Of a stretch of DNA of 64,000 nt, positions 4,421 through 56,100 are shown one piece after another. A program made the position numbers and the translations under genes. The notes beneath the pieces are model-generated. The model saw nothing but the letters and a program-made list of their open reading frames with translations. It was not told the origin of the DNA and did no database searches. Each line of letters starts with the position of its first letter. Position 1 is the first letter of the stretch. Origin of the DNA: Eunapius fragilis (Eukaryota > Porifera > Demospongiae > Spongillida > Spongillidae); NCBI GenBank assembly GCA_963681505.1, contig OY811984.1:1841272-1905271 (forward strand), in the 5' to 3' direction.

Positions 4421-4430
4421 CACAGACATC

Positions 4431-13862: not shown

Positions 13863-14240
13863 TTAATGGTTCTATAGCATTGGTCTTTTCTTATAGGCCC
13901 CGCCCACAAATGTTACCAGGATCCCACAAAGTAACACTGTGCAAAGCCCAGGAAGTATAAGGTCTGTAGTGGTATTTGTTCCATGAGATGTACATATACA
14001 TGGGTCTGTACACTTGTTTTTTTTTAAACAGACTAGAAGATGGCAGAATGTACTTCTTTGAGTTATATGAAAAGGCATCTGATGGAGCTGTAGTCACTGA
14101 TGTCAAGGTTTGGGAATCATCATATCCAACTGTGCTGGGGACCTATTTGATTTCTGTCTATACCCTCCACAGTGGAGGACTCCTGAAGGAACCAACTTCA
14201 CTTCCATACCTCCTAGCTCCTTTGCCATGGCAGTAGAATG

Positions 14241-14287
<47 letters not shown>

Positions 14288-14448
14288 ATGTGTGTATGAG
14301 TGTATGTTCTTTAAAAACATATTACATCATCACTATCAACAGTGAACAAGACTGGTCATTACTTGGCATCACCCATGGCAACAGCACTTGGTGGTCCTCT
14401 CCCCAGCTTCATTCTTCAGGTACCCACATGCACATACACACACACACA

Positions 14449-17575: not shown

Positions 17576-20500
17576 TGTGTGTGTGTATGTGTGCACATGT
17601 GTGTGTATGTGTGTGTACATGTGAGTGTGTGTGTGTGTGTGTGCGTATTCCATTACATACCCATGCGTTTACAAAACACACACGACAGACAACCTAGTCC
17701 ACACATCTGAGTATGTCTACCTGCCTGCCTCTGGGAACAGCAAGCTTTGCCATCTGAATAACTTCCAGTGGGTCCCTAATGTAGATGTCTACCTCATTAT
17801 CTCATGTGAGAGCAGTCAGGTACAATGTCTTTGTCCATGGTGATCACTCCTTCCCCACCCCCTGCAGTGAAGAGCCTTGGACGGTGGTTCGGCCATCTTG
17901 TTGAAAACTTGGAGGATGTGAGTGAAATGGGAGCATCATACATGTGTGTGTAACTCCATCACCTTCCTCTCCTCCCTCTCTCTCATACCTTTCCTCCCTC
18001 TCTCTCATACCTTCCCCTCCTCCCTCGCTCATACCTTCCCCTCCTCCCTCCTCCCTCTCTCTCATACCTTCCCCTCCTCCCTCTCTCTCATACCTTCCTC
18101 TCCTTCCCTCTCTCTCATTCCTTCCTCTCCTTCCCTCTCGCTCATACCTTCCTCTCCTTCCCTCTCTCTCATACCTTCCCCTCCTCCCTCTCTCTCATAC
18201 CTTCCCCTCCTCCCTCTCTCTCATACCTTCCTCTCCTTCCCTCTCGCTCATACCTTCCTCTCCTTCCCTCTCGCTCATACCTTCCCCTCCTCCCTCTCAC
18301 TCATACCTTCCTCTCCTTCCCTCTCGCTCATACCTTCCCCTCCTCCCTCTCTCTCATACCTTCCCCTCCTCCCTCTCTCTCATACCTTCCTCTCCTTCCC
18401 TCTCGCTCATACCTTCCTCACCTTCCCCCTCTCTCATACCTTCCCCTCCTCCCTCTCTCTCATACCTTCCCCTCCTTCCCTCTCTCTCATACCTTCCCCT
18501 CCTCCCTCTCTCTCATACCTTCCCCTCCTCCCTCTCTCTCATACCTTCCCCTCCTTCCCTCTCTCTCATACCTTCCCCTCCTCCCTCTCTCTCATACCTT
18601 CCCCTCCTCCCTCTCTCTCATATCTTCCTCTCCTTCCCTCTCTCTCATACCTTCCCCTCCTTCCCTCTCTCTCATACCTTCCCCTCCTCCCTCTCTCTCA
18701 TACCTTCCTCTCCTTCCCTCTCTCCCATCTTCCTGCAGCTATATGCACACACCCACGATGACCACTTTGAGTTGGTGGTGGTGGACTTTGAGAGTCAAGA
18801 TATTGATGTGGAGTATGTGTTGAAGAGTAGTGCCATTAAGAGGTAGGCTACCCAGCAGTAGAGTCATTGTGGTTCAGTTGCTATGGTCACCAGATGGAAG
18901 TTCATTAAGAAGACTGGTTTGTTCTCAAGAGCTGCTGGCTTGCAGGCAGGAATTGACTATGTCAAAGTATGTCTCGTCATTTAGACCACACCCACCACCA
19001 TCATAACTCCCCCTCCCTCCCTATCAGGACCCCAACAGCATAGTGATGACCATTGACATGCACCTCACACTCCCTGTGGGGTTTGTTGAGTACACCAGAA
19101 GGGTATGTGGTATGAAAGTGAAACCTGTTTACATAACTAATACTCCATTCTAAGAAAACAGCATATTGTTTTTCTGCTTGTGATATGGCATACCAGTCCC
19201 CTGTACATCATATAGGAGATACCCTACAATATATCCTTCATATGTGTGACTAAAGAACCACCAGGGTGAAAAATTTTGCATTGCAAAGTGTTGGGGCAGA
19301 GTCAGTGATCACGGCACACTGTGTTTGCAGCTTCGCAAGACGTGACAATGCGTTGCCACATTTGAAAGTGACGCCACTATATCAATTTGATTTGTATGTG
19401 CTATGTATATAAATCCACATGGGTGAAAATCTTGTAGAATGTTCCGTAATTATATGTGCAAGTAACTTAGTGTCCATTTAACATTTATTGTGTGACCTCA
19501 CGTGTGTTTGTGTTTATGAAATGTCTCATCCTCTTCCCTCTGTAGCACGTGATCCAAGGGAAGATGGGGTATGCTCCCATGTTCTTCAGACTGGGGCCTG
19601 GCTACACTGAAATCAACGTCAATGGTATGGTTGTTCACTGAAGAATTCTACTTAATAAGTTATGACGTATTTGTCCAGGTTTCTGGGAGACACTTACATA
19701 TGGCATGTTTGGTTTGTACAAGTCGGACTGGACTGCCATTGGTGGATTCAATGTTCAACAGTACACAAAATGGGGTGGAGAGGACTGGGATGTCCTTGAC
19801 AGGTTAGTACATGTGAGGCAGCCCATTGTAGAAGTAGATAAGAGGTTCCTTCTCAAGTGTGAAGCTTTATGGAATTAGCCAGCTCTATGCGTGTAACTCT
19901 TCTGTACATGGGACTGCTCAAAACGAATAGTACAGGTATATAGATAAGTTTACAAACAAAGTTATACGATTACCCGGGATCTGTGTAATGGCTAATGCAC
20001 ATGCCTGTCCTGCCAGTGGATACCAGCTAGCTTTTATTGAAAAAGGCCTGGGGACTAAATGAAGTTTAGGGCCTTTGTGTATGGCCTATATAAAATGTAC
20101 AGGAATGGTGCATTTACACAATATAAATTACAATATAAACATTTAAAAAACCATTGATGGAAAATGCTGTAAGTTCTCTTATAATAATTCTTTTCTTGTT
20201 TTCAGTGTAGAATTCGAAACTGATAAACAACTTAGAAGATGTATTTCAAATGTTATACCATTTGAAATCCAAATAATAATTTTGACGGAAAAGATTATTC
20301 TTTTCTTAGTCTTGCAAGTCAGTCGTTATTAAAAGGCAATGAACGATATACAATGGAAATGAGATGCTTCTTTTGGAATACCCACTGCCACGAGACCAGT
20401 GAATAGCCTAGTAATGTTCATCCAATGTATTAAGCTAAACATGTAAAAGCCATGGGATGTCATATATTAGTACCATGGAGGTGATGGTTATACGAAAATA

Positions 20501-25199: not shown

Positions 25200-28100
25200 T
25201 GTGTGTGCAGATGTGGGGGTGGGAGGTTGGTGTCTGTGACACGGCTAGAAGGTGACCATGCACTGGGCTATCCTCACATGTGATGACAAGGTACACATCT
25301 GTGTTGGGAGTCCATTGGAAGTTTGAGAGGTAGCAAAGGGTGTTGCTGGTAGTGAGGTACACATACTCAGATGTGTGGAGTAAATTGTCTGAGAAGGTAC
25401 ACATAACTGTGGTAACGTTTTTAGCGTGTTATGTACATTCCTCCCCATGGGCAAAGTACAAAGTACTAATATTGCATCACCAAATTAAATTCTCAACATT
25501 TCATGAAGAAATAAACTTAGGGCTGTAGTAATCCATTTGCAGGGAGATGTGCAGGATAACCAATAATCTTACCTCTAACCTCTCTTACCCTTCCTCTCCT
25601 CCTCTCTCCTCCTATCCCTTCTCTTCCCTCAGGACTATCCCCTCCTACCCTTCCTCTCCCCTCCTACCCTTCCTCTCCCCTCCTATCCCTTCTCTCCCTC
25701 CTACCCTTCCTCTCCCCTCCTACCCTTCCTCTCCCCTCCTACCCTTCCTCTCCCCTCCTACCCTTCCTCTCCCTCCTACCCTTCCTCTCCTCTCCTACCC
25801 TTCCTCTCCCCTCCTACCCTTCCTCTCCCCTCCTACCCTTCCTCTCCCCTCCTACCCTTCCTCTCCCCTCCTTCCCTTCCTCTTCCCTCCTATCCTTCCT
25901 CTCCCCTCCTACCCTTCCTCTCCCCTCCTACCCTTCCTCTCTCCTCCTACCCTTCCTCTCCCCTCCTACCCTTCCTCTCCCCTCCTACCCTTCCTCTCCC
26001 CTCCTACCCTTCCTCTCCCCTCCTACCCTTCCTCTCCCCTCCTTCCCTTCCTCTTCCCTCCTATCCTTCCTCTCCCCTCCTACCCTTCCTCTCCCCTCCT
26101 ACCCTTCCTCTCTCCTCCTACCCTTCCTCTCCCCTCCTACCCTTCCTCTCCCCTCCTACCCTTCCTCTCCCCTCCTACCCTTCCTCTCCCCTCCTACCCT
26201 TCCTCTCCCTGCATGCACACAAATAGCTTTGCTTCCAGATATTCAAAAGGAAAAGGTTAAGGTTAACCCTAACCCTAAGGTTATTCAAAGTCAAGGGGAG
26301 AGGAAGGATAGGAGGGTCTTGAGAAATATGTTCACCACACCACCACCACCACCACCACCACCACCACCAATGAAATGGTAGCATGAACAAACTAACCTTT
26401 CACCATGATATCCTTATAAGATAATAGAAGGGAAGAAGGGTACATGGTTATCCACACCCATTGCCTCTACCACTTACCATCTCCAATAGGAACCTCGATC
26501 CGTTCTGTTTATTTTTTGTTTCCTCCATGTAGTGAAGCCCAACAATCTCCCCCCTGGGGGACAGGGGGAACGTTTAACCAACCAGTTATTAATATCGCAA
26601 AGCATAGTTTCACCACAGAACAAAGACAGTATGTATGAGGGTAATGGTTTAATTTTGACAGAGTGTAGCTATGAAGCTCTGTAACTACTGTGGTTGCTAC
26701 TTAAGGTATAGAATGACCCTTTAGTCCTGAATGATGTCTCTACATGCATGTGTGCAACCATCTCTGGTATACCATGTTTCATACATTACACCTTTGGATC
26801 AATGAGCAATAGCATTTGTTGTTGATATTGTTCCACATGTGGTGTTATCCATCATTGAACATGCACAGCCATAACTACAAAGCTGGTGTAAACTGGCAGA
26901 CAGTATCAAGCAATGTGGGCACTCACATACCATGGCTCCTAATAATAAGATACCCTTCCCTACCCTACCCTTCCTCTCCCCTCCTATTATAACTTTCTTA
27001 GAGCTTCGATTTGTCAAGTTGATAATAAATAATATTTTGGACTCAATTCGGTGAAGCACTGAATTTTTTTTTCCACTCTATGGGAGTTGAGGTACCCATA
27101 TCTTTCTACAGTGCTCTGTCCTCAAACTACATGTTCCTTAGTTTTACGTGTCTTACTTGCAACCACACGTCAATTAAGCCACGTAACCAGGGTAGGAACA
27201 TGTAATTTGAGAAAGCAAAAGGAATATATTATAGTCCATAGACCATGATATTTAATTTGACCGCCACTTTGCAACTTTCCCTGATGCTGTCATCCACTAT
27301 AACTACAATATGTGTGTTCTCATTTTTAAACTGCCAACTTCATACCCAGTCTTCAGTCCATCAAACGCCTTCTTGTACAGTTCAATAACATCTGATGCTA
27401 CCTACAATTCACAGGTGAATGAAGTAGAAACTGAAATTCACTCTATGTTACCTTCTCTTTCACTACACTGTTTCCAGTGCCAGCTTCCGTGTTCTTTCTG
27501 AACAGAGTGTCGTCTGCAGGGTACACACTTGACTCAAAGACCTAGAGTGTGTAAATGTGTGTACCCCATTCTTACACATGTATCTACATACTTCATATAT
27601 TCCCTTGTACTGGGAGACGTTGTGTTGAGACACATACTCAGGTTTGAATTCACAGGTTGGCAGTACGTTAACCTGGGTGACTGGAAATAAAGCAGCCACT
27701 TTTTAAAATTTAGAATGCGGCAGGAATGTTACTAAGCAACACAAATGTTAACCTCTTGACAAAAAACAGACCTCACTGGTTGAGAAATATAAGCCTAACC
27801 AAGGCAGAGTGAGAACACAGGCCTCTGCAGTATCGTACACAGCACTCACCTGCAAATATGGAGTCCCCTACAAAGTGAGTCCTTCTGTGACCCTATCATC
27901 CAACGTTTGGGGTCATGGAAGTGCAGAAAATGATCTACCAGAGTGATGAGTGTTCTCGTGTGCACTGGTACATACCTGGATGACCAGGCTGGGGAGAGGC
28001 CCAAGTAATGCTGTTGCCATGGGTGACTCCACATACTGACCAATATTGTCCACTGTTGATAAGTTATTGAGTACATGTACATGTAATACAAACTCACACA

Positions 28101-29867
28101 CACCCTCACACACACACACACACCCTCACACATACACACACACCTACATTCTACTGCCATGGCAAAGGAGCTAGGAGGTATGGAAGTGAAGTTGATTCCT
28201 TCAGGAGTCCTCCACTGAAAGAAGCCATATAAGGGCACCATTTGTGCAGTAAAGTTCACCTACTTTCACCTCAGAGATGACCATCCCATCGTAGGCCTTT
28301 TCCAAAAACTCAAAATAATAGGTACTACCCACATCCAATCTGTCAGAAGAAGTTAGATTAAGAGTGGGAACTCCCATGAATGGATGTGTATGCTGTGTAG
28401 CCTTTACTTCACACATCCACATAGCTACACACACAGTAGCTTCACACATCCACATAGCTACAAACACAGAGCCCTTACTTCACACATCCACATAGCTACA
28501 AACACAGAGCCCTTACTTCACACATCCACATAGCTACAAACACAGAGCCCTTACTTCACACATCCACATAGCTACACACACAGAGCCCTTACTTCACACA
28601 TCCACATAACTACACACACAGTAGCCCTTACTTCACACATCCACATAACTACACACACAGTAGCCCTTACTTCACACATCCACATAACTACACACACAGT
28701 AGCCCTTACTTCACACATCCACATAGCTACACACACAGTAGCCCTTACTTCACACATCCCCGTAGCTAGCACTTACCTTATGCTTGTGAAGCCTGGTACA
28801 ATGTAGCTCAATTGCACAGTGGGGGTATCAGTGTGTGTGACCTAATGACAAATCATTATTTCAGTAACAAGTTCACTAAATCATATTGATTAGGTGAAAC
28901 CAATTCACAGGGGAACATATGTACTTAAGTTTACGATAACTTGTACACTCCTCACCCATAGCACACTATCCCACCATGTGTGTGTGCAAGGGAAATAGAA
29001 CTCCTGTGGTTACAACTTGTAACGTACAATGTGATACCTTAATCCATTCTTAGAAGGAGTAGACATAACAGTAGTAGCAAGTATGGGTAACAGGTAGTAG
29101 CAAGTATGGGTCGGCTTATAACTACGTGCATAGTGGCTTCTGTCAATTCCTCACTATTGACAGTGTGAGTGGCACAGGGGCGGACATACATACGTACATA
29201 CGTGGCAGTTAAAGGGGGGGGGGGAGGGGGGGGGTTTAAATGATTAATTCACAACTACATGTATGATTGCCAAATTTCCTGCTATGAATAATATTATCGA
29301 AGGGCTGGGAGTGGGGGTTTAAACCCCCAAACCTCCCCCTAGATCTGCTACTGAGTGGATACAACTGACAGTGTTACTTTATTTGCCATGCAACTAGTTA
29401 TTACAATAATTGAAGACCATGCCTGAAGTTCCCCTTAATTAGAGAGCACAGGTGTACCCTCCTCACCATGTAGGGCATCTCGACTGCTAAGACCTTTCTG
29501 GAGTTGACAGGGTCAGCGTTTGTGCTCAACCAGAGCTCAACGGAACAGGAACATGTGACCCGCGTCATCTCAACGACGAAGGAGTACTCTCCTAACATGA
29601 AACAGATCCTAACCACAATACAAAGTGCACGAGACACATGTGTGTGTGCACACATACAGACACACACATGCAAACACCCATGCACACACACACATGCACA
29701 TACCCAGACCCACACACCATGCATGCATGTGCACATACACACACACACACACGTGCACACACATACACACATATGTGCACACACACACACGTGCACACAC
29801 ACGTCCACACGCACACACACACACGTGCACACGCACACACACACATGCACACACACACAGCCACACC

Positions 29868-29905
<38 letters not shown>

Positions 29906-35670: not shown

Positions 35671-35683
35671 AAATTTCATTAGG

Positions 35684-36145: not shown

Positions 36146-37690
36146 AATAATAATGCATTGAGATGCTTTTCAATGCATGGTTCCTGGATGATGGGGTGCT
36201 GGCTGGCCCTAAATCTGCAGTACTTAGAGCGATGCACTTGATTGAAGAATTGGGTCCTCCTTTTGGTATTTTTATCAACCTTGCCAAATGTGAGCTGTAT
36301 AGTCGTAATGAGCTGAGCAGCACCTTCCCGGTGATGATAAAGAGTTCTCAGGTGCCACATTTGGAGATACTTGGGGCCCCCATAGGTGACTTCTTGTTTT
36401 GCTCAAAGTTCATTGCTTCCAGGCGCAAGATTGCCTCAAAGCTGCTTTCTAAATTGGAAGAGGTTGCCAGTATTGATCCTCAGGTAGCTCTTATCCTCGT
36501 GCGTTTGTGTGGTGGCTTCTGCAAAATGGTGCTTGTGGCTCGAACAACACCCCCTCACCTTGCCTTTAGCTCCCTGGAGTCCTTTGACAGTGATGTCAGG
36601 ATGTGTTTTTCAAACTGTGTAGCCACGGACATTTCTGATGTAGTCTGGAAACAGGCTCAACTTGGCTTGAGCTATGGTGGCCTTGGTCTGCGCTCAATTT
36701 CACACCATTCCTGTGCGGCATACATTGCATCACTGAGCTTTTCTGGCCTGGGGAGTGCTGACAACCCTCACCTGATGCGGTCAATTGTCAAGTACAATGG
36801 TTTGGTCTCACCTCCAGATGGCATCTCTGTGGAGTCTATTTTAGCTTCCCCGATCCCACAGAGAATCTTGTCTCAGAGGCTGGATGACCACTCTTTTGGG
36901 CTTGTAATTGCAGCTGCAACTGACGCAGACAAAGCACGTCTTCTTTCTACATCTGCACCCCATGCAGCCTCTTGGCTCTCAGTTGTGCCTTCTATAGGTC
37001 TTGGGCTACATTTAGATCCCAATGAGCTTCAGATAGCAGTGAAGTGGTGGTTGGGCTTGGACACTTCCAGAGGCTCTTCATGTGGTCTCTGCCCTGATGT
37101 GGCATTGGACCCTCTGGGCCATCATGCAGCTACCTGCCGGCGTGGTGGCGATGTAGTTATACGTCACAATAGGTTGCGTGATGTCTTTCTGAGCTTTTGC
37201 CACCAAGCCCACATTGCAGCAAGGTTAGAAGCTGGAAGTGGCCTCACTCCAGGACTGGATCGCGCTCGCCCAGCTGATGTGCTAGTGAGGGAATGGGCTC
37301 AAGGCAAGCCGGCAGCCTTTGACATCACGGTCACATCTCCTCTTACCCCTGCTATTTTGGCTGAGGCAAGTAGGAGGGTGGGTGCTGCTGCTGAAGCTGC
37401 AGAAAACAGAAAGCACACAGCCAATGACCCTAAATGTGCTGAACTAGGCTGGAGGTGTGTGCCTCTAGCAGTAGAAACTTACTGCAATTGGGGTGAGGAA
37501 GCAAGAGGAACCTTTGCTCTACTGGCCACACGCTTGGCCTTTGGCTCTTCCTCATTTCGTAAAGCCAGGGTGATCAGTGACATGTTTGGAAGGTTGAATA
37601 TCACCCTGGTGAGAGCCATAGCAAGGGCCATACTGGCTAGGACTGTGATCCCTTCTGACTTTAATTAAATAATAATAATATGTTGGTGTG
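36146..37690 (+). mobile_element. 5'-truncated LINE with RT C-terminus and nuclease-like domain
   Basis: The 501-codon frame (36163-37668) begins inside the reverse transcriptase: WFLDDGVLAGP at residues 6-16 is the catalytic YxDD-type motif, followed by INLAKCEL. A thumb/connection region follows. Then a CCHC-like knuckle occurs (C307, C310, HH about 321-322, C326) and a RPAD-x14-FDITV segment at about 369-390. That order resembles site-specific LINEs with a C-terminal restriction-like endonuclease (R2/NeSL-type); the assignment is inference. The frame is intact to its stop at 37668, so this is the youngest copy here. The 5' RT motifs are missing, consistent with truncated integration. It is followed by an AATAATAATA tail. 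Confidence 0.75.
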
Positions 37691-38168: not shown

Positions 38169-41100
38169 CTATCTTTGACCATTCCACATTCCAGCTCTTG
38201 TGTGGAAGTAATGGACCAGGCCAGGATACCGAATTCTGAATACCTCATATCCATGTGCAATAACCCTAATATTGGTGCAGCAGAAAATGGGTTGTGTGTG
38301 AAGTTGTGAGAACAAAGGAAATAACCAACGGTAACCAATAGGAATTAAATATCAAGTAACCAATGGTAATTAAATATACCACTCATGAAAGAAAAGCAAC
38401 AATGAAAGAAACACTACCAACTTATTTAAACCAAGCAGCATACGTGTATGCGGACAAGAAATCAAAGCAAGTGTAATTCTATTCAGATTATCTTCATGCA
38501 ATCAAATATCGAATTCAAGTGAACAGCATAGACAAACGTCCTTACGAAAACGAGCAATTAAATACTGCTCAGCTGTGCACACAACAGTGCAACCAGGGGT
38601 TTATGGGAAGGGGGAAGGGTTTAATAAATATATTCACACCAGATGAGAGGGAGTGTGCCTCTCCCATGACAGCTGGTGGGGTACTATTAGCTCCACCCGT
38701 GAGCCGCGTTAGAATGTAGTGGTATTGGAAACCGTACTTTTTGGCTTCAATTTGTAGATGTGACTTGTCATTGGAGGCACGTGCTGCAGTTAATTGCAAG
38801 GCTTAGTCGTGTAGCAAGGCTTAGTCATGCAGCAAGGCTTAGTCGTGCAGCAAGGCTTAGTCGTGTAGCAAGGCTTAGTCATGCAGCAAGGCTTAGTCAT
38901 GCAGCAAGGCTTAGTCATGCAGCAAGGCTTAGTCATGCAGCAAGGCTTAGTCATGCAGCAAGGCTTAGTCATGCAGCAAGGCTTAGTCATGCAGCAAGGC
39001 TTAGTCATGCAGCAAGGCTTAGTCATGCAGCAAGGCTTAGTCATGCAGCAAGGCTTAGTCATGTAGCAAGGCTTAGTCATGCAGCAAGGCTTAGTCATGC
39101 AGCAAGGCTTAGTCATGCAGCAAGGCTTAGTCATGCAGCAAGGCTTAGTCGTGCAGCAAGGCTTAGTCATGTAGCAAGGCTTAGTCATGCAGCAAGGCTT
39201 AGTCATGCAGCAAGGCTTAGTCATGCAGCAAGGCTTAGTCATGTAGCAAGGCTTAGTCGTGCAGCAAGGCTTAGTCATGCAGCAAGGCTTAGTCATGTAG
39301 CAAGGCTTAGTCATGTAGCAAGGCTTAGTCATGCAGCAAGGCTTAGTCATGCAGCAAGGCTTAGTCATGCAGCAAGGCTTAGTCATGTAGCAAGGCTTAG
39401 TCATGTAGCAAGGCTTAGTCGTGCAGCAAGGCTTAGTCATGCAGCAAGGCTTAGTCATGTAGCAAGGCTTAGTCATGCAGCAAGGCTTAGTCATGCAGCA
39501 AGGCTTAGTCGTGCAGCAAGGCTTAGTCGTGCAGCAAGGCTTAGTCATGTAGCAAGGCTTAGTCATGTAGCAAGGCTTAGTCATGTAGCAAGGCTTAGTC
39601 ATGCAGCAAGGCTTAGTCATGCAGCAAGGCTTAGTCATGCAGCAAGGCTTAGTCATGTAGCAAGGCTTAGTCATGCAGCAAGGCTTAGTCATGTAGCAAG
39701 GCTTAGTCATGTAGCAAGGCTTAGTCGTGCAGCAAGGCTTAGTCATGTAGCAAGGCTTAGTCATGCAGCAAGGCTTAGTCATGTAGCAAGGCTTAGTCAT
39801 GTAGCAAGGCTTAGTCGTGCAGCAAGGCTTAGTCATGCAGCAAGGCTTAGTCATGCAGCAAGGCTTAGTCATGTAGCAAGGCTTAGTCATGCAGCAAGGC
39901 TTAGTCATGCAGCAAGGCTTAGTCGTGCAGCAAGGCTTAGTCATGCAGCAAGGCTTAGTCATGCTTGCTTGTAACATTATGATGCAAGCCATTGATCTCA
40001 CTACCACAAACAGGCCCAGCCCCCTACATCCCTATCGGAGAAAAAAAGGTTGATGTTTAAGGGAGTTCATCTCCATACCTTTAAATAATAATTTTAAAAA
40101 TCATTGTTGGAGTACCATTTCTTTCCTGAAGTGTAACATTGCTGCCTAGTGTATGGCCACCTTTGGTGATATACTATTGGGCAGGGCAAACCGCATGCAA
40201 CACCTCGCAACTAAACTCCACAAAATGATCGTACTGTAATAACCTTCAACCAACTTACTTGTCCACAATATCCCAGTCCTCTCCTCCCCATTTTGTAGTA
40301 TACTTCTGGAGGTCAAATCCTCCAAACTTGTTCCAATCAGACTTGTACATACCAAACACACCATAGGTCATCTGTTCCCAGAAGCCTGCGTAACGAAAGA
40401 TTCAACAGTAACAGCAGAAAAGCCTAAGGAATAGCAAGGTTGCTTGTAAAAATAATCACTCAAGTTCCTGTCATTAATATGTTTTTAATTTTTTGAAGTT
40501 GAAGTATTGTAAGTATGATATTTAAAAATGCTAGCAGAAAAGAGCAACGAGAAAACCTAACTGTAATGTATACACAGCACCCAAGTACACACCGTTTATG
40601 TTGACTTCAGTGAAGCCAGCATTCAGCCTGAAGAACATAGGAGAAAATCCCATTTTCCCTTGAACGACGTGCTGAAAATGAAATGGTTAGTTATTTGCTC
40701 CCAAAAGAATAAATATTCCACAAGTTTTCATGCTATGCCATGCCAATTGGCCACCCCCTCCCCCTCCCCCCCATCAAAAAAAGAGTGTTTAAATGTAACC
40801 ATAAATGTTTGTGCATACGTCTTTGTTTTTCAAGTGTACCATTTTATTTCCAATGTTGGAAATGTTCGCGGAAGGATTTGGAGATACGATCATTTAAACA
40901 CACATCTTTTTATTTTCTTAAAGGGGGGGGGGGGGGGGGGGGTAGAGGGGTGTATGCAGTGTACTCTACATACCCTTCTGGTGTACTCAACAAACCCCAC
41001 AGGGAGTGTGAGGTGCATGTCGATGGTCAACACTATGCTGTTGAGGTCCTAGAATGCAGTGGGTGAAAATAAAAAACGAAGGAGATAACTGAGGTGTGGT

Positions 41101-44100
41101 TTGAAACAGGCACTTACTGTGACATAGTCAATTCCTGCCTGCAAGCCAGCTGCTCTTGAGAATGAACCAGTCTTCTTAATGAACTTCCATCTGGTGAACC
41201 ATTGCAACTGAACCACAATGACTCTACTGCTGGGTAGCCTACCTCTTAATGGCACTACTCTTCAACACATACTCCACATCAATATCTTGACTCTCAAAGT
41301 CCACCACCACCAACTCAAAGTGGTCATCGTGGGTGTGTGCATATAGCTGCAACAAATAAATGCACTTAAACACACACACAAAGGTCACTTTTAAGTCACC
41401 ATAAATGGATTAAACATTAATTAAGCAAATTCCAACAATTAATATAAAAGCAGGGGTGGGCTGGGTTGTCATGACAATTGCAAATAGTAGCCATTATGTA
41501 CACAGAGTGACACTGCCCACACTACTACAGTACATGCAACAAGGAGGTTGAAAATACCGATCACTTCTACAACACACAACATCCCAATTAATGCACACTC
41601 ACATCCTCCAAGTTTTCAATTAGATGTCTGAACCACTGCCCCAAGTTTTTCACTGTTCAAATGAAAGCAAAGAAAATAATGTGAACTTGCGCGCCAGGTA
41701 CAGATACATGTACGCAGAACAGTGATACAGTCTCAGGTCCATTAGCAGCTCAACCATGGGGGGGGGGGGGGGGGGGAAATAAAGCGTATACATGTACATT
41801 GGAGGCTATTGAAACTCTTGGTGAAGATAGCGGCTACTATGAACACCGGTCATGGCCAGACATTCATCCATTTATTCATCAATTGCGGTCAACAAAACGG
41901 CTGAATGTACTGCATAAATAAGTTAAATATGAATAAATAGACAATAGTTCATATAACGTATTCATATTTAATAAACATAGATTAGTATTTTTAAATGCTT
42001 GATGATAAATTTTTCACCTGTTTAAGAGAAATACGAATTTTTAGGCAATTATCATTGAAGTTACGTGAATGTTTTTTATTGCTGGCCATGTATAAAAAAC
42101 TAATAGAGCTTAGCAACCAATGTATGTGCTTAGCAACCAATGTATGTGCTTAGCCACTAATGTATGTGCTTAGCCAACGATGTATGTGCTTAAGGCCGAC
42201 ATACACGGGTCGACTTCCTGCCGATTTATCGCCTGCAACTCAAATGAATATGCGTAAGAACTCCGTAAAACTTTAGTTTACTGAATTTTCACCCGTATTC
42301 ATTTGAGTTGCAGGCAATAAATCGGCAGGAAGTCGACCCGTGTATGTCAGGCCTTAAGTCACCAATGTATGTGCTTAGCCAATGTATGTGCTTAGCCACC
42401 AATGTATGTACTTAGCCACCAATGTATGTGCTTTATTTTCTCTATGACCGAGCAGCAAATCTTCTCTACAATGTACGACCTGAGTAGCGCGTGTACGCAA
42501 ATACATTCAGTTAAGGGCATGTGGACATATAGAGCGACGAAGGCATTACTCACTTGTCTGGGGACCAGACCACATATGAGAACATGGGTCTGGTTGCGTC
42601 CCATAGAAGGTTTTGTGCCAGGTGCCACCAAACTGAGGCAGTACCGCAGGAATGCTAATTAACTGTTATTCTATGCTTATATCTTATTGTGGGATTGAGG
42701 GATTGTGTGGGTGTTACTACCATGGCAATCAGCAATCTGCGGTACGCTGTACTGCTGGATAATTGCATTCCTCTGGCACAAACCTTCTATGGGACGCAAC
42801 CAGACCCATATTCCCATGTAAGGTCTGGTCCCAAACTCACAGGAGATGATGATGTACACGTCCACATTCGGCGTCCACTGGAAATTTGACGTGTGGCACA
42901 CCAAGTCACTGTGGTTAGCCAGGAGGTATATGTATTCAGATGTATACACAGGATATCCTGTCGAGAACCAGAGCATATTCACATCAGTGGTCTCACACTA
43001 CTAAATGGCTTTTTTAAAACCTAAGGACATGTGCAATTATACTTACTTCGTCCAGTAAGTTTAACTTCCTGCAAACAACAAGGTCATTAGTGCAGCTGAC
43101 ACCTACACTTTTGACTTACCATTTCCAACAGGAAGCGAGAGCCCTTATCCCTGTTCTCTGTCTGCTCCAGGAAATGGACCTTCATAACCTCTCCCCTGAT
43201 GAGGTCACAATGATGTAATAAGGGTCACTATTATTCAAGCATGGCCCTCATAACAGGGAGAGATTATTAACTATGATTAAAAGGGGAGGGGGAAGTTACA
43301 GTGCACAGGTATCTGGTGGTGTCAGCACTGGCCACCATGCTCAATGTTTACCTAGCAGTCTAGGGAATATTGGGTCCTGGAATAGATTAGGGGGGCATTG
43401 GATAGGGAATATTGGGTCCTGGAATAGATTAAGGGGGAATTGGATAGGGAATATTGGGTCCTGGAATAGATTAGGGGGGAATTGGATAGGGAATATTGGG
43501 TCCTGGAATAGATTAGGGGGGCATTGGATAGGGAATATTAGGCCCTGGAATAGATTAAGGGGGGAATTGGATAGGGAATATTGGGCCCTAGAATAGATTA
43601 AGGGGGGCATTGGATAAGGAATATTGGGTCCTGGAATAGATTAAGGGGGCGTTGGATAGGGAATATTGGGCCCTGGAATAGATTAGGGGGGAATTGAATA
43701 GGGAATATTGGGTCTTGTAGTAGTATTACACTGTAGGAGAAAAATACTGGGTCAAACATCGGGTTTAGAGGGAACATTTGGTAGCAAGGTTGGAGAACAT
43801 TGGTTCCTTGCAGGCAGTTATAATTTACCAAAAAGGAGGAATTTTTTTAAAAGCATGCTGGCTGCACACCATGCACACTAATCCTACCACTGTGTGGAGT
43901 CATTGCTATATAGAATAAGCTACAGGTGTAGGTAGGTAGAGTAACCATACCGATATTTGCTGTGATTGAAGGCATTTCTGTACAAGTCAAGAAGACTGCT
44001 TGCAATCTATCAAATGGGGAGGGGGGTGAATGGTCACAATACACACGTGAAGGTTGTTGCCACCAAAAAGGGCCTAATGTCTTTTATTGTTATTTAATAT

Positions 44101-47100
44101 ATTGGAAGTCTGAAATGTCTTCTACAAAACGACTCTTATGCAGTGAAAATCGGCCTATCTCTGTCACAACATTTAAAAGGCACTGATATTAGCAATACAG
44201 TTCCAGCTCAACAAAAGCATTGCCCATCTTTATGCGTTAGGCCCATTTTCGTGGCAATGGTTCCATGTATCTGTGCATATAGCTGACCTTTTTAGATATC
44301 ACGCTGTTCCCTTGGCCCATCCTGTTGTAATTTTTGGACCATGTTTCATCAGAGGGGTACACAAGAGAGGGGAACACCTGTGACATGTTCACATTGTAGA
44401 AGGAAGGTGTAAGGAAGGAAGGTGTAAGGGGAAGGTGTAAGGGAGGAAGGTGTAAGGGAGGAAGGTGTAAGGGAGGAAGGTGTAAGGGGAAGGTGTAAGG
44501 GAGGAAGGTGTAAGGGAGGAAGGTGTAAGGAAGGAAGGTGTGAGGGAGGAAGGTGTAAGGGAGGAAGGTGTAAGGGAGGAAGGTGTAAGGGGAAGGTGTA
44601 AGGGAGGAAGGTGTAAGGGGAAGGTGTAAGGGGAAGGTGTAAGGGAGGAAGGTGTAAGGGAGGAAGGTGTAAGGGAGGAAGGTGTAAGGGGAAGGTGTAA
44701 GGAAGGAAGGTGTAAGGGAGGAATGTGTAAGGGGAAGGTGTAAGGGAGGAAGGTGTAAGGGAGGAAGGTGTAAGGGGAAGGTGTAAGGGGAAGGTGTAAG
44801 GGAGGAAGGTGTAAGGGGAAGGTGTAAGGGAGGAAGGTGTAAGAGGAAGGTGTAAGGGGAAGGTGTAAGGGAGGAAGGTGTAAGGGGAAGGTGTAAGGGA
44901 GGAAGGTGTAAGGGGAAGGTGTAAGGGAGGAAGGTGTAAGGGAGGAAGGTGTAAGGGGAAGGTGTAAGGAAGGAAGGTGTAAGGGAGGAATGTGTAAGGG
45001 GAAGGTGTAAGGGAGGAAGGTGTAAGGGAGGAAGGTGTAAGGGGAAGGTGTAAGGGAGGAAGGTGTAAGGGAGGAAGGTGTGAGGGAGGAAGGTGTAAGG
45101 GGAAGGTGTAGGAAAAGGTTTGGTCTAGACCAAAGTTCCCTTCTAAAACACCCCTACCTGATAAACACCACTGTATTTCTTTAGTTTTCGTGGAAATGCA
45201 TATTCTGCTTTGAATTCACATGGAGGTAATACAGCAAGTTGTGTCACTGTTGAAAAACAGACACAGCCAGATATGACATGCAGACTGTAAAATCCCTCAC
45301 AGATACGATCCACCACGGACAGTGCTCACCTGGGTGTATGGTGTCACCTACGAATACAACTCTTCTAAGGTCCTGTGATACAAAAATAGGCAAAAGGATT
45401 TGGCCTCTCCCGCAAGATAAGCAACACGAGGTAGTGTTATACATTGTGACACATGACAGCACTCAGTGTGGTATGCATACGACATACATGTACAGTGCAT
45501 AGAAGCAGTGGTAATACTAGTAGTACTCATGTACAGAACATAGAAGCAGTGGTAATACTAGTAGTACTCATCTACAGAACATAGAAGCAGTGGTACCACT
45601 AGTAGTACTCATGTACAGAACATAGAAGCAGTGGTAACACTAGTAGTACTCATGTACAGAACATAGAAGCAGTGGTAATACTAGTAGTACTCATGTACAG
45701 AACATAGAAGCAGTGGTAATACTAGTAGTACTCATGTACAGAACATAGAAGCAGTGGTAATACTAGTAGTACTCATGTACAGAACATAGAAGCAGTGGTA
45801 ATACTAGTAGTACTCATGTACAGAACATAGAAGCAGTGGTAATACTAGTAGTACTCATGTACAGAACATAGAAGCAACTAGTACTCATGTACAGAACATA
45901 GAAGCAGTGGTACCACTAGTAGTACTCATGTACAGAACATAGAAGCAGTGGTAATACTCATGTACAGAACATAGAAGCAGTGGTACCACTAGTAGTACTC
46001 ATGTACAGAACATAGAAGCAGTGGTAACACTAGTAGTACTCATGTACAGAACATAGAAGCAGTGGTACCACTAGTAGTACTCATGTACAGAACATAGAAG
46101 CAGTGGTAATACTAGTAGTACTCATGTACAGAACATAGAAGCAACTAGTACTCATGTACAGAACATAGAAGCAGTGGTACCACTAGTAGTACTCATGTAC
46201 AGAACATAGAAGCAGTGGTAACACTAGTAGTACTCATGTACAGAACATAGAAGCAGTGGTACCACTAGTAGTACTCATGTACAGAACATAGAAGCAGTGG
46301 TACCACTAGTAGTACTCATGTACAGAACATAGAAGCAGTGCCCGTGGTCATGTTCACTAGTAGTACACATGTGGCACTTACTTGCAAACGTAGACTGGGC
46401 AATGGCATTTGCATGATGCTGGCCATTGGTGAGGTATCGGCATATTGACCACTGTAGTCCACTGAACCATGTAAGGACATGTAAGGACAGGACCCTCCGA
46501 GAGTATAATGGTACACATGCATACACATGTATACAACACACACACATGCCCGTATGTTATGCAAATACCAATAAACATATGTACACACTCACATTCAACT
46601 GCCATTTGAAAGCACTTAGGTGATATTGAGATGAAGTCAGTTTCATGAGATAGTTTCCACTTGAACAGAAAATATCATTTGAACATAAACGCACACACAA
46701 ATAGAGAAAGTTCCAAGGCACACATATCACATAACTCACAAAGGCACACATCACATCACACATCCCACACCAAGGCACACACATCATTCACCAAGGCACA
46801 CACATCACCCACCAAGGCACACACATCACATCACCCACCAAGGCACACACATCACATCACCCACCAAGGCACACACATGATCCACCAAGGCACACACATC
46901 ACCCACCAAGGCACACATCACATCACCAAGGCACACACATCACATCACCCACCAAGGCACACACATGATCCACCAAGGCACACACATCACCCACCAAGGC
47001 ACACATCACATCACCAAGGCACACACATCACATCACCCACCAAGGCACACATCACATCACCCACCAAGGCACACATCACATCACCCACCAGTGTAAAAAA

Positions 47101-50100
47101 AGCACATACCTTGATCTCAGCCGTTAGCCTGCCATTAAACGCCTTTTCAAAGAACTCAAAGTAGTAAGGGGACCCATCCAAAAGCCTACGGCACACGGGG
47201 ATCATTGCACACCAGTACAGACTATGGGGATCATAAAGCATCCTCACTTACCAGTACGATCCACTGAGCAGAACAACAGTTGATGACCACCACTGCATGT
47301 ACAAACAAGAGGTCACAAGTATTAAATAGTCCCACCCTTCCCTAAGCAATTATGTATGACCACATATAAAAATATCCCCACTGTCCCCTCCATCACACTC
47401 CACCATCCCCTCCATCACACTCCACTGTCCCCTCCATCACTCTCCACTGTCCCCTCCATCACACCCCACTGTCCCCTCCATCACATTTCACTGTCCCCTC
47501 CATCACACTCCACCATCCCCTCCATCACATTTCACTGTCCCCTCCATCACACTCCACCATCCCCTCCATCACACTCCACCATTCCCTCCATCACACTCCA
47601 CTGTCCCCTCCATCACACTCCACTGTCCCCTCCATCACACTCCACCATCCCCTCCATCACACTCCACCATTCCCTCCATCACACTCCACCATCCCCTCCA
47701 TCACACTCCACCATCCCCTCCATCACACTCCACCATTCCCTCCATCACACTCCACCATTCCCTCCATCACACTCCACCATCCCCTCCATCACACTCCACT
47801 GTCCCCTCCATCACACTCCACCATCCCCTCCATCACACTCCACTGTCCCCTTCATCACACTCCGCTGTCCCCTCCATCTCACTCCACCATCCCCTCCATC
47901 ACACTCCACTGTCCCCTCCATCACACTCCACTGTCCCCTCCATCACACTCCACCATCCCCTCCATCACACTCCACTGTCCCCTCCATCACTCTCCACTGT
48001 CCCCTCCATCACACCCCACTGTCCCCTCCATCACATTTCACTGTCCCCTCCATCACACTCCACCATCCCCTCCATCACATTTCACTGTCCCCTCCATCAC
48101 ACTCCACCATCCCCTCCATCACACTCCACCATTCCCTCCATCACACTCCACTGTCCCCTCCATCACACTCCACTGTCCCCTCCATCACACTCCACCATCC
48201 CCTCCATCACACTCCACCATCCCCTCCATCACACTCCACCATTCCCTCCATCACACTCCACCATTCCCTCCATCACACTCCACCATCCCCTCCATCACAC
48301 TCCACTGTCCCCTCCATCACACTCCACCATCCCCTCCATCACACTCCACTGTCCCCTTCATCACACTCCGCTGTCCCCTCCATCTCACTCCACCATCCCC
48401 TCCATCACACTCCACTGTCCCCTCCATCACACTCCACTGTCCCCTCCATCACACTCCACCATCCCCTCCATCACACTCCACTGTCCCCTTCATCACACTC
48501 CGCTGTCCCCTCCATCTCCCTCCACCATCCCCTCCATCACACTCCACCATCCCCTCCATCACACTCCACTGTCCCCTCCATCCCACTCCAAAGTCCCCCC
48601 AACACTTACTGACTGAGGTTGTTTGGTGAGAGTGACCTTTGAGATCTTCATTGGATCAGCATCAGCACTCAGCCATAGTTCAAAGGAGTACAGAGCCTTG
48701 TAGTATTGGCTAACTTCAATAACAAAGTTGTAGGTGCCTGTAGTACAATTGGTCAATCCAAGTTATGAATAGGAAAGTTTTCGTTTACTTGATACTTACT
48801 CAGACACCATGTATGCATGTCAACCTACTACAAGCCAGGATTTTCTTTCCCAAGACAACAGAAACAGTTGGGTGATATCCATCATTTCCAGAGGGTTAAC
48901 AGTGACACCCTATGGTAAGCCATTATTGATCTGAACACATGCAGGTGAATTCATTAGATCCCATTAATTGTTGCTTTTGATGTACTGTTGCAGCATTTCA
49001 GTTAGTTATAAAATCTGGCAAAAACTTGTTTCACTTTAAAATGGTGAAGCAGTTGAAAGTGGCTGAGGAAGATATGCTGCTCAATGACAATGGGATGTTG
49101 AACTCAATACATTGCGATGGTATTGAATTTTCTCTTGGTCCGGTTGAACTGAAAGCATCACAAGGGCGATTATGGTGGAACTGTCCCTATACATCACACC
49201 TTGCTTTTATTTTGTGTTTCTTGTGTGTGTGTTTTTATTTGCATTGGATAACATGACTTATTGTGGTTAAAAAAACAAGCAACACATGTATTCATTCAAT
49301 TTATTATACACAGTGCATCATTATACCTGGTTGAACTGTTTTGTAGAATGCTGCTATATGTGAACGTCCGATATGATGAGTGAGGTTTTATTTTATTTTT
49401 TAAAAGCATATGAATTAAAAGACATATTGATATTTTCTGAATGTGGTTTGCTTAAGGTTTCTGATATTATGCCTTTCAGCTTGAAAATGTCATACAGTTA
49501 CTAATAACTGAAACAGGGCCACATGTTTCTATTGCCACAACTTTTGCACACAATATCAAGCTCACTATTGTACTAGGAAACAGGTATGATTATTAATGCT
49601 GTAGTGAGAACAAAGTGAAATTTTATTGGTGTGCAGATATTTGAAAATGTTCAAACACCAAACCATCCTTATTTAAAAGGACGCCAGGAAGCTTAAATAA
49701 AATTCAGCTCAACGTTTACTGCACGGCATACACAGCAGGCCTCACTACATACATAGACAGCAGGCCCTCACTACATACATAGACAGCAGGCCCTCACTAC
49801 ATACATATACAGCAGGCCCTCACTACATACATACACAGCAGGCCCTCACTACATACATACACAGCAGGCCCTCACTATACATACACAGCAGGCCCTCACT
49901 ATACATACACAGCAGGCCCTCACTACATACATACACAGCAGGCCCTCACTACATACATACACAGCAGGCACTCACTACATACGTACACAGCAGGCCCTCA
50001 CTACATACATACACAGCAGGCACTCACTATACATACACAGCAGGCCCTCACTACATACATACACAGCAGGCCCTCACTATACATACACAGCAGGCACTCA

Positions 50101-53100
50101 CTACATACGTACACAGCAGGCCCTCACTACATACATAGACAGCAGGCCCTCACTATACATACACAGCAGGCCCTCATTACATACATACACAGCAGGCCCT
50201 CACTACATACATACACAGCAGGCCCTCACTACATACATACACAGCAGGCACTCACTATACATACACAGCAGGCCCTCACTACATACATACACAGCAGGCC
50301 CTCACTATACATACACAGCAGGCCCTCACTACATACATACACAGCAGGCCCTCACTACATACATACACAGCAGGCCCTCATTACATACATATACAGCAGG
50401 CCCTCACTACATACATACACAGCAGGCACTCACTATACATACACAGCAGGCCCTCACTACATACATACACAGCAGGCCCTCACTACATACATACACAGCA
50501 GGCCCTCACTACATACATACACAGCAGGCCCTCACTACATACATACACAGCAGGCACTCACTATACATACACAGCAGGCCCTCATTACAGACATACACAG
50601 CAGGCCCTCACTACATACATACACAGCAGGCACTCACTACATACGCACACAGCAGGCCCTCACTACATACATACACAGCAGGCCCTCACTACATACATAC
50701 ACAGCAGGCACTCACTATACATACACAGCAGGCCCTCATTACAGACATACACAGCAGGCCCTCACTACATACATACACAGCAGGCACTCACTACATACGC
50801 ACACAGCAGGCCCTCACTATACATACACAGCAGGCCCTCACTACATACATACACAGCAGGCCCTCACTACATACATACAGTAGGAGACACGAAAAAGGTT
50901 ACGTTCCGTTTACATAAAACGATCGTTGCGCGGTGTTGACTACAGCCTGTTATACGAAGTACAAATTGCGTCTGTAAGGTGTGTTGATGGGTGTTGATTG
51001 CGTACACGCATTCCATCGTTTGCACTACCTGGCTGCACGCTACCGTTGCGTTTGTGCGCCGCGTTCATCGTGAGTCGCTTTAGCTGTCGCGATGCGTTCT
51101 GAAGTCTTCAGAAAAAGAAAGTAAGTGTCTCCAAATCGAACGGAAACCAATCTAGCAACGTTGTGATGGTGTATTTCCTCTTGCGCTTGATTCCAGAAGC
51201 TACGTAAGCGTAGATACGATGCGCACGATAGTACAGACGTAAACGTATTCATACACGATAATTGATACCGTACCTGCGCTCGATCGTGTTAACTCCGTGT
51301 ATACCAGCGTAGTTCGAAACTATACAATCGTACATATGGCGTGCTAACAATACGGAACGTAACCTTTTTCGTGTCCCATACTGTACACAGCAGGCACTCA
51401 CTACATACATACACAGCAGGCCCTCACTACATACATACACAGCAGGCCCTCACTACATACATACACAGCAGGCCCTCACTACATACGTACACAGCAGGCC
51501 CTCATTACATACATACACAGCAGGCCCTCACTACATACATACACAGCAGGCCCTCATTACATACATATACAGCAGGCCCTCACTACATACATACACAGCA
51601 GGCACTCACTATACATACACAGCAGGCCCTCACTACATACATACACAGCAGGCCCTCACTACATACATACACAGCAGGCCCTCACTATACATACACAGCA
51701 GGCTCTCACTATACATACACAGCAGGCCCTCACTACATACATACACAGCAGGCACTCACTATACATATACAGCAGGCCCTCACTACATACGTACACAGCA
51801 GGCACTCACTACATACATATACAGCAGGCCCTCACTATACATATACAGCAGGCCCTCACTATACATGTATACATACATGCATGCCATAAAACAGCCAATA
51901 GAATGAACACCTCCTACATGTAACCAACTCCTACAGAGAGTGGAGGACATTATAACGGGGAGAGCAATGACTTCTCCTAATTATGTGCCTATCCAATACT
52001 GAATTTCTAGGGTGTGTATGCAAGGCTATAGAAAGGGGGGAGGGGGGGGGGGGGGGGGTCAATGGGGCCAAACAATCCCCCTCTCATAATGAAGGTGACC
52101 CATGACCCGCTATGTATACATGTGCGTTCTAACATACCACTGACTGTTTGAATTGAGTACAATTCGTCTGCATTTAGAATAGGGTCTCTCTTTAGCCTCG
52201 GACCCAACTAACACAGCTGCAGATGGATTACATCAGCGGTGATTTAGTCCATCCAAGCTGCATACATTGGGTCTGGGGCCAAGACTAGGTCTGGGGCCAA
52301 GACTAGGTCTGGGGCCAAGACTAGGTCGCTCTAAGCAAACTCACTCGCACATATCTGGCTACGGTCCTGGTGTGGAGGTGTGTGTGGAGGTGTGTGTGGA
52401 TGCCGTGGGGGATGGTAGGGAGTGGGGAGGGAATGGTGGAGTGGTGTGGGGAGGGAGGGAGGGTATGGAGGTGGAGGTGCAGTACGTGTTTGACTCTATC
52501 CAGTTTGTAGTGGTCAGTACCCTCTCCATTCCCACACCTCACCACACTCTCCACACGCCCACGCCCATGCTTTTACCCCTAAAAACACCAAACTCACCAG
52601 TGGCTGGTGGGTACAGAAATCCATAAATCCTATGTCCATATTTCCCCTTCTCATTGCTCCATCCAGCAAGTTCATTGAATTCAATCCTCAGGGACCCAAT
52701 TGAAGTCCTGAACTACAAATCAAATAGAACATGATTTCAATGCAACACGCACACATGCACACACATGTACACACGTACACACATGTACACTGATGTTCAC
52801 CTTACATGCCAGTGTACACACAGTAATGGCACGTGGGAGACTGTAAAACCCAATAAAAGAGAAGGGGACAGGGGTGGGGGAGGGGGGAGGTGATGGGGGT
52901 GGGGGGAAGGGGGTGGGGAGGGTCATTCCACATCAAATTAGCTCATTTTTATTACTTCATACAAATTCTCCTTATAAATCTGTAGATTTTCACTTTCATT
53001 TAATAAGGGTGTGGCCAATACATCTCATTTAATAAGGGTGTGGCCAATACCCCGTGCTGAACTGCTGAATTCATGTATTCATCACAGATTTGGCTTAGTT

Positions 53101-56100
53101 TAACAAGGTGTGTTGGTCACACACTTAAATTTCCCAGAACCAGATTAGGCGGGACTTTTAAAAACACAAACTGTATGGAGCAACAGTTTTGGTTTCATTT
53201 GGAGGTAATTATGTACTGCATGAAATATGAACATTGTAAGAGATAATGGCAACTCATTAAATCAGTATAACCCAAGATTGAAATTAATTAACCACCTGAT
53301 TTCATTAATACACATTACTGCCATTAGGTAAATACTAACAATCCAATTATTGTAAGCGGTTAAGTAATTGTATCAAAACCCTCTTAAATCAACATATAGG
53401 TCCTCTATTATCAAAGTTATTCAAGATTAAGGTTAGAGATAATTGATTATAAAAGCACAAGATATGAATATGCAGGCAGTGAACAACATTGATTTTTAAG
53501 TTCCTTTAATGGTTGCTTGTAATTAATTTAATTAGTCCATTATGAAATGAAGTAGGAAACACCACATGTAATTATTTAATAGTGAGTTACTCAAAGTTCA
53601 TTAAAATTGCATTGGGCTTCTACATGTACATGTACCATAGTCTTTTCAAGTTTGACTTGTTGTTTTGAATATATGTCAATAGAATTTCATAATTTCTCAA
53701 ACTTAACAGTTTATAAATCACTCAATTAATTAAACATTGCTGTACACATTAAAGATAATTAGCTTTTTAAATGTGTAAACAAATTTGCCTGAACCCTCGA
53801 CTTTAGTAATACACGATTTTAATCTTCAACCTATCAAAAGTTATTTCACTTCAAACACCATTGGTTCATCCATGGACACCTGTACTAGCTTGTATGAGGT
53901 ACAAAAGTGGACTCATTTAATGTGGAATGTTCGCAGAGGGGGATGGAGGATAGTGATGGTGAGGGGATGGTGAGGGGAGGGGGATGGTGATGGTGAGGGG
54001 AGGGGGATGGTGAGGGGAGGGAGATGGTGAGGGGAGGGGGATGGTGAGGGGAGGGGGATGGTGAGGGGAGGGGGATGGATGGAAAGAGGATGGTATGGAG
54101 GATGGGGGGGGGAGGGAATGAGATGGGGATGATGAGATGGGAAACGGGTGGTGAGGGGGAGATGGTGAGGGGGAGAGGGTGAGGGGAAGATTGAGGGGGA
54201 GATGGTAAGGGGGAGAGGGTGAGGGGGAGATGGTGAGGGGGAGAGGGTGAGGGGGAGATGGTGAGGGTGAGAGGGTGAGGGGGAGATGGTGAGGGGGAGA
54301 TGGTGAGGGGATGGTGAGGGAGATGGTGAGGGGATGGTGAGGGAGGATGGGGATGGAAGGTGAGGGGAGGGAATGGGATGGGGACGAGAAAGGGATGGTG
54401 AGGGGAAGGGATGGTGGGGAGGGGATGGGAGGGGGAGGAGGATGGTGGAGGGGATGCAATATGACTCACTGTGGGGTTGTGGGGGAAGTCCCTCTTGATT
54501 CTCATGTCATCAACCATAAATCCAACCGTCCATTTCCACATGTCATAGTTCAAATGGCCTACTGTCTAAGAAGGATAAGATTTAAATGAAAATTGAATGA
54601 GAGCAACCCCTTAATCACAACATGAGTATGGAACATCCAATGTGCCCCACCCCATAGCATATTGGAACATCCAATGTGCCCCACCCCATAGCATCCAATG
54701 TGCCCCACCCCATAGCATATTGGAACATCCAATGTGCCCCACCCCATAGCATCCAATGTGCCCCATCCCATAGCATATTGGAACATCCAATGTGCCCACC
54801 CCATAGCATATTCGGAACATCCAATGTGCCCCATCCAGTGTCATTTTGGTAACTAAAGTGCGTCCACACACACGTCTGTCAGTGTAGTTGATGTGTCCAC
54901 TGTTCCAATATGCCCACCCCATAGCATATTCGGAACATCCAATGTGCCCCACCCAGTGTCATTTTGGTAACTAAAGTGCGTCCACACACACGTCTGTCAG
55001 TGTAGTTGATGTGTCCACAGAGGGTAGGTATCTCCCCATAAATCAGTGGACTCACAAATATCCAAGGTGGTCCTCACACAACAAACCATAACCCATTGCA
55101 AACAGAACTGGTGTCTAATGCAGCACCAGGTGTCAGAACTGGTGTCTAATGCAGCACCAGGTGTCAGAACTGGTGTCTAATGCAGCACCAGGTGTCAGAA
55201 CTGGTGTCTAATGCAGCACCAGGTGTCAGAACTGGTGTCTAATGCAGCACCAGGTGTCAGAACTGGTGGCAACTATTAAACTCAAAGACAATAACCTGCT
55301 CAAAAGTTGGGATGTAAAATGTCTCATACCAAACTGGTACCCCACTGACTAAATTGTGCAATGAACTTTAATTTGCAACACACTTTATTGCCTTTTCCAA
55401 CACAACTAGACTGGACTGGCAGTGTACAAAGTAAAGATCAGCCAACTACAGTGGATTGCACCTTAAGTGCGCCACTGGTTAACCGATTAACGTCGGAATA
55501 TTTTTAACATATAGAGTTGTCCACAGACAGCTAAATGAGGCAGCAGAGGAATCTTAGGTAGCTGGATGGGGTTTCAACAACATAATCTGAAGCCGTGAAC
55601 ATGTGTAACTTCAAATGGTATAATTTTTCAAGGGGTCTGGATGAATTCATTGGTAATGGTAAACCCATCTTTGATGCAGATATGCGTATCTTGGTGATAA
55701 TCGGCTGCCATGTGATGACCATTAATTACCCTACACCTCATGAAACCCAACAAACTATTGAGCCGAGGGAGGTGTACACAGCTCATCGTGTAACACATCT
55801 GGCGCACGAGGATTGCCAGCTATTGGCACAGGGGATTCACAGATACACATGACCCTACAATATACAAACAACTTAACTTGATTTAAGTGGCCCATGAATG
55901 CATGCTCCACTACAACATTAAAATGTTACTTGTCATGCAGCAAATAGCACAGGTGTACAAGAAAATACAGGGGTACACAGAAAAGCGGAAGGGTGGACAA
56001 GAATATACAGACTAGTGCACAGGGGTGCACATGCCAACACATGAAACAAAAACACGTAACACTGGGAGAAGAAATAAGGCCTTATTGGGGAGGGAGGGTA

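Follow-up and report, generated by a model that had tools for sequence, protein, structure and literature searches.

The 64,000-nucleotide stretch of the freshwater sponge Eunapius fragilis analysed here (the window; contig OY811984.1, C14:1841272-1905271) carries three paralogous genes, and several introns of the third, gene 3, are largely filled by tandem arrays.

About 6.5-22.2 kb of the window, forward strand: gene 1
About 30.6-24.0 kb of the window, reverse strand: gene 2
About 54.6-38.2 kb of the window, reverse strand: gene 3

The joined C-terminal exons of gene 2 matched the Pfam families CHGN (E 1.1e-17) and Glyco_transf_7C (E 9.6e-12), and because of these matches the predicted product is labelled a chondroitin N-acetylgalactosaminyltransferase-like protein; the sole Pfam match of the N-terminal part of gene 3 was PA14, under the curated cut-off. 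Predicted splice sites were placed by eye on an alignment of the three genes, tandem repeats were marked with Tandem Repeats Finder (TRF), and the genome searched comprised 218,937,333 bases in 24 contigs. TRF assigned 26.8% of the window to tandem repeat; 10 dinucleotide shuffles gave 0.05% on average and never more than 0.13%, which rules out simple chance as the source. The window arrays are made of head-to-tail units of about 10-100 bp, well above chance, and are hence minisatellites.

Four introns of gene 3 were at the centre of the analysis:

47293-48609, reverse strand: intron 5, 1317 bp; array at 47378-48605, 22-bp unit x 56, 93% of the intron
46660-47109, reverse strand: intron 7, 450 bp; array at 46713-47090, TRF periods 21 and 88, 84% of the intron
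45373-46381, reverse strand: intron 9, 1009 bp; array at 45487-46340, 41-bp unit x 21.6, 85% of the intron
44378-45157, reverse strand: intron 11, 780 bp; array at 44401-45110, 15-bp unit x 50, 91% of the intron

A preliminary description of this locus had given these same intron lengths and held that arrays fill most of each, and both points were confirmed (84-93% tandem repeat). The intron 11 array also contains 28- and 43-bp multiples, and on the sense strand it is 86% pyrimidine with zero AG across 710 bp. The gap between donor and array is 4, 19, 41 and 47 bp in introns 5, 7, 9 and 11, and that between array and acceptor is 85, 53, 114 and 23 bp in the same order; the distance of about 15-50 bp proposed before fits most of these ends, though not every one. 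Introns 7, 9 and 11 occupy matching positions in all three genes, and their counterparts in genes 1 and 2 are 65 and 49 bp, 164 and 83 bp, and 85 and 50 bp, respectively, the last value having been given earlier as 51; the counterpart of intron 5 was not resolved in the paralog alignment. Once the arrays are subtracted, 70-155 bp are left in the four introns, and the exons are intact as claimed, with 1 repeat base among the 3752 bases of 44 exons.

The residue of inflated introns resembles a plain mini-intron. Among introns of the window and of a set of myosin genes (see below), those with repeat over more than half of their length (n = 19) had medians of 450 bp for full length and 89 bp for the residue. 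This residue is close to the length of the introns free of repeats (n = 19, median 83 bp, interquartile range about 64-166 bp; Mann-Whitney p = 0.93). With arrays removed, the lengths in genes 3, 1 and 2 became 72, 65 and 49 bp for intron 7, 155, 93 and 83 bp for intron 9, and 70, 45 and 50 bp for intron 11. Since intron positions are common to the paralogs, the introns look older than their arrays. Intron gain by tandem duplication was ruled out for introns 7, 9 and 11, as their positions are matched in genes 1 and 2. We lean towards the reading that old mini-introns were enlarged by mini- and microsatellites expanding in place, with a minority of units shared between loci; the shared positions, mini-intron residue and clean exons agree with the in-place growth proposed in the preliminary description, while a founder copy was clear for intron 9 only.

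Whether each intron has a unit of its own bears on a different explanation, namely that minisatellites inserted into introns ready-made, either borne on mobile or foldback-like elements or as repair copies, and then expanded. In a search that leaves out simple repeats and very frequent words, the 41-bp unit of intron 9 had a single match in the 219 Mb genome, which was itself, and 9 of 10 hand-picked arrays with complex units matched solely within the window; close copies at many unrelated loci, as expected of a transposon-borne or introner-like sequence, were thus not found for intron 9. For introns 7 and 11, the matches listed elsewhere (39/649 and 40/374 candidates scored) were just low-complexity look-alikes at 71-80%. 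The tenth array (window 20914-21538, 26-bp unit) has relatives at 77-84% on five other contigs (C16, C9, C2, C4 and C23), and on C16 its unit occurs in both orientations within 2 kb. The 22-bp unit of intron 5 recurs about 0.56 Mb away at C14:2446326-2446747, where 19.5 copies at 92% identity with the same main variants lie between unrelated flanks, and the matches listed include 38 further rows, some overlapping, at 70-82%. The claim of a private unit per intron therefore stands for intron 9 and fails for intron 5.

Among the relatives of the intron 5 array, L002 (C12:8000555-8004725) and L004 (C14:208028-212229) are foldback-like: their inverted arms (466 bp at 84.5% in L002, 429 bp at 86% in L004) consist of tandem arrays with a 22-bp unit, and the sequence separating the arms carries more arrays and a CA run. 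Inverted arms were looked for in L003 and L005, relatives at 70-82%, and none were found. L002, L004 and L005 are alike, their best matches among themselves being 967-1556 bp at 80-87%. Judged from these similarities, the intron 5 unit may be a relative of a dispersed 22-bp family, although convergence could also account for it because of the C-rich make-up. The insertion of ready-made arrays thus has intron 5, the arms of L002 and L004 and the 26-bp unit on its side; set against it are the nine window-specific units, the intron 9 unit with its lone match, the armless L003 and L005 and the mini-intron length of the residues, and we regard it as unlikely.

The preliminary description had also raised the possibility of a genome-wide process, and inflation is indeed not confined to gene 3: arrays enlarge introns of genes 1 and 2, at positions other than those of gene 3, and introns of myosins and other sampled genes. 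Repeats were present in 19/36 window introns, occupying 44.4% of intron bases. A PF00063 profile found about 12 multi-exon myosin loci, six of which were analysed; exon gaps were passed over if they spanned at least 25 profile positions or lacked a consistent frame, and 6 of the 31 introns obtained were dropped before counting for weak splice scores. Repeats occurred in 23 of the 25 kept, making up 48.5% of intron bases. A home-made gene finder with stricter penalties recovered 5/7 and 4/10 anchored introns exactly at two myosin loci, and because of this partial recovery its introns are supportive only: 26 were kept and 17 shorter than 1500 bp were used, with repeats in 12 of these 17.

For the genome at large, twenty 10-kb stretches (200 kb), fixed at 2.0 Mb of contigs 1-20 (2.5 Mb on C14), contained 17.5% tandem repeat, 15.6% with a period of at least 10, with a range per stretch from 0.6% to 82%. 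Exons seen in the sampled loci include those of dynein, ADAR, kinase, FAST-kinase-like and polymerase-beta-like genes. One stretch (C9:2000001-2010000) holds a 7.3-kb tandem array at 19-7282. These data bear on the possibility that the arrays reflect ordinary genome-wide minisatellite turnover tolerated by introns, any strand preference near splice sites coming from selection against AG, or against loss of pyrimidines, near acceptors, with no seeding. The abundance of repeats in the sampled regions and in window intergenic sequence (13.5%) speaks for it. Against it, repeats are denser in the window's genic spans (35.3%) and in the seven sampled loci roughly classed as genic (median 28% versus 8% in the other 13, p = 0.043), although one genic locus (L022) is almost without repeats. 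In addition, of 80 arrays, 10 have their start no more than 5 bp from a donor, where 2.1 would be expected under uniform placement. Ordinary turnover is a credible explanation, but not the one that we favour.

Inflation or misplacement of copies by the assembler was likewise weighed. Such arrays are difficult for an assembler, and 802 gaps are given for the published assembly (PMC12616128). Two 2.5-kb stretches of C7 (C7:1051801-1054300 and C7:1021811-1024310), 30 kb apart, are 100% identical, which on the letters would mean either a very recent duplication or an assembly duplicate. However, a consensus quality of about QV 60 is reported (PMC12616128), the window is without any N, and the arrays differ from intron to intron and recur across many genes, so that an artefact is highly improbable.

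A strand rule emerged at the splice sites when window, myosin and sampled loci were pooled. With cut-offs of 15, 30, 60 and 100 bp all tried, G exceeded C on the sense strand in 13/19 donor-side arrays and 1/16 acceptor-side arrays within 30 bp (Fisher p = 0.0003), and in 21/30 and 6/26, respectively, within 60 bp (p = 0.0006). For periods of at least 10 within 30 bp, the counts were 8/12 versus 1/12 (p = 0.009), and for the window genes alone at 30 bp, 5/6 versus 0/4 (p = 0.048). The matrix used to pick myosin acceptors covers 20 positions, the pyrimidine tract among them, and may bias myosins to C-rich acceptor arrays; with myosins excluded, the values were 6/7 versus 1/9 at 30 bp (p = 0.009) and 9/13 versus 4/13 at 60 bp (p = 0.12). 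AG is avoided upstream of acceptors, and it was absent from 10/16 acceptor-side arrays, including window arrays of 710 bp and 768 bp; the other six contain 1-4 AG each, and one of them is a short G-rich array. The same lean, in weaker form, was seen in non-repeat intron bases (G 493 and C 412 near donors; G 412 and C 604 near acceptors), as ordinary turnover would have it. The rule fits equally with AG avoidance and with seeding from splice signals. The broader proposal, that splice signals (GT or G-rich at donors, pyrimidine or CA at acceptors) seed minisatellites, and that freshwater-sponge introns grow genome-wide in a splice-guided manner, each with its own repeat, is tentative and in our view rather doubtful.

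Traces of origin were sought in the sequences flanking the arrays, the derivation of each unit from the short orthologous intron having been suggested before as a check. On the donor side of intron 9, a degenerate continuation of the unit reaches base 10 of the intron (18-base stretch, p = 0.003 versus shuffles), which is what a founder at the start of the old intron would leave. At the donor side of intron 7 the match was marginal (p = 0.047; 0.45 when compared with other introns), and the founder-like match at its acceptor side is a degenerate continuation of the array. As to growth, self-match, which at such lags compares part of each array only, peaked at 550 and 506 bp in intron 5, 666 and 707 bp in intron 9, and 555 bp in intron 11, as duplicated blocks of many units would produce; the scan of intron 7 gave no block-duplication peak.

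Several results weigh against expansion in place or against a role of splice signals in it: 1) a founder copy in the flank was not significant at 15 of the 18 array sides tested; 2) over 12 positions, array removal lowered the between-paralog standard deviation of log length from 0.85 to 0.63 (Wilcoxon p = 0.16), a convergence that is not significant because several introns hold long non-repeat sequence; 3) those long residues are themselves such a point, and arrays account for part of the intron growth, not all; 4) the intron 5 unit recurs elsewhere on C14, as described above; 5) array ends within 10 bp of the acceptor numbered 7 versus 3.9 expected (p = 0.09); and 6) with only the window genes counted, the strand rule faded at 60 bp (donor 5/8, acceptor 3/7, p = 0.62). 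With these points counted, most arrays are best explained by in-place growth of old mini-introns, a minority having shared or imported units.

By this account, a short, often low-complexity stretch would first be duplicated locally, and the array would then grow by single units and by the many-unit blocks seen in the self-matches, presumably through unequal exchange or repair. Some arrays begin at a splice signal, such as the GT runs at donors, and may have been seeded there. Selection would remove arrays that enter exons or place AG just before an acceptor, in keeping with the observed pattern. As a minority of arrays, such as that of intron 5, share their unit with others, seeds or arrays might sometimes be copied between loci. 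The arrays would need no function; their effect would be longer introns and, probably, length polymorphism.

Further introns of the three genes are inflated or repeat-bearing as follows:

43196..43950, reverse strand: gene 3 intron; 42-bp x 8.4 array at 43361-43714, unit matched only in the window
48738..52597, reverse strand: gene 3 intron, 3860 bp; two arrays of one 26-bp unit at 49727-50879 and 51384-51861, besides 2135 bp of non-repeat sequence
52713..54469, reverse strand: gene 3 intron, 1757 bp; sense-strand pyrimidine-rich arrays between 53955 and 54414
17918..18738, forward strand: gene 1 intron, 821 bp; pyrimidine-rich array without AG, 53-bp unit, 94% of the intron
14240..14342, forward strand: gene 1 intron 8; near-pure GT run starting 4 bp past the donor
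28053..28147, reverse strand: gene 2 intron 8; donor as in gene 1 intron 8, GT run with a 20-bp period, minisatellite-like
29592..29904, reverse strand: gene 2 intron; GT-rich array from the donor GT onwards, 82% of the intron; gene 1 counterpart 58 bp
25389..26477, reverse strand: gene 2 intron, 1089 bp; 19-bp x 30 array at 25638-26209

In the intron at 52713..54469, the nearest pyrimidine-rich array lies 55 bp off the donor and is an exception to the strand rule. The array of the gene 1 intron at 17918..18738 stops 10 bp before the acceptor, and the counterparts of this intron are 65 bp in gene 2 and 256 bp in gene 3. Exon 8 is identical at 66/67 bases between genes 1 and 2, with an identical donor, and it is plausible that the GT run of gene 1 and the 20-bp period of gene 2 are a snapshot of a microsatellite becoming a minisatellite. 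Genes 1 and 3 share 148 identical bases (window 18734-18881, forward, versus near 41200-41350, reverse), starting 5 bp before the intron end, and the neighbouring introns are wholly different; by its sequence, this looks like a recent gene conversion halting at the inflated intron.

Elsewhere in the window, an 18-bp unit repeated in 65 copies (96% match) at 38703-40031 leaves one open frame per strand of more than 400 codons, because the unit is without stops. At least three related open reading frames, the longest of 504 aa, lie at 35018-37668 and 4416-4749, and the two of them scanned were without a Pfam match at E 0.1. An inverted repeat at 34249-34535 (arms of 131 nt, 99% complementary, spacer of 25 nt) is possibly a small mobile element.

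Intron lengthening is usually explained by transposon insertion. Here, 44-49% of the intron sequence surveyed is tandem repeat, and mostly private units in introns at shared positions allow an intron-by-intron comparison of before and after. The E. fragilis genome is a good place for the study of intron growth, its arrays tending toward a make-up that splicing tolerates; the strand rule is testable in any annotated genome and could separate splice-signal seeding from plain selection. In Ephydatia muelleri, introns are reported to be larger than those of Amphimedon and repeats to form 47% of the genome, and the main text of that genome paper is without the word 'satellite' (PMC7385117). A literature search in one collection gave no description of such intron arrays in sponges, and 'freshwater sponge' with 'minisatellite' returned 0 papers. 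Intronic minisatellites and strand-biased intronic repeats are already known; what stands out here is the extent of the arrays, the fact that their units are mostly private, and the strand rule near splice sites.

Among known systems, the potato RdRp gene is said to have gained an intron by tandem genomic duplication; tandem duplication alters intron structure in both cases, but a new intron was made there, whereas the sponge introns grow at shared positions. The 'mirages' of the amphioxus Adh3 and globin genes are likewise described as minisatellite-like repeats at animal introns, with unstable unit number and gene-specific units; however, the mirage unit spans the exon-intron boundary and is proposed to make new introns (PMC3087553). 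The sponge arrays lie inside old introns, the four of gene 3 being wholly intronic; at one myosin locus (L034), an array starts 9 bp before the predicted donor. In Daphnia pulex and other arthropods, tandem repeats are reported as densest in introns and strand-biased (CT over AG-type), as in the sponge, but with short units, those above 8 bp being much rarer in introns than elsewhere (PMC3152781), whereas sponge introns are filled by units of 10-90 bp. Finally, CeRep25B and similar repeats of C. elegans are described as mostly intronic minisatellites with a possible splicing effect; they belong to one shared 24-bp family (PMC4039745), whereas in the sponge the units mostly differ from intron to intron.

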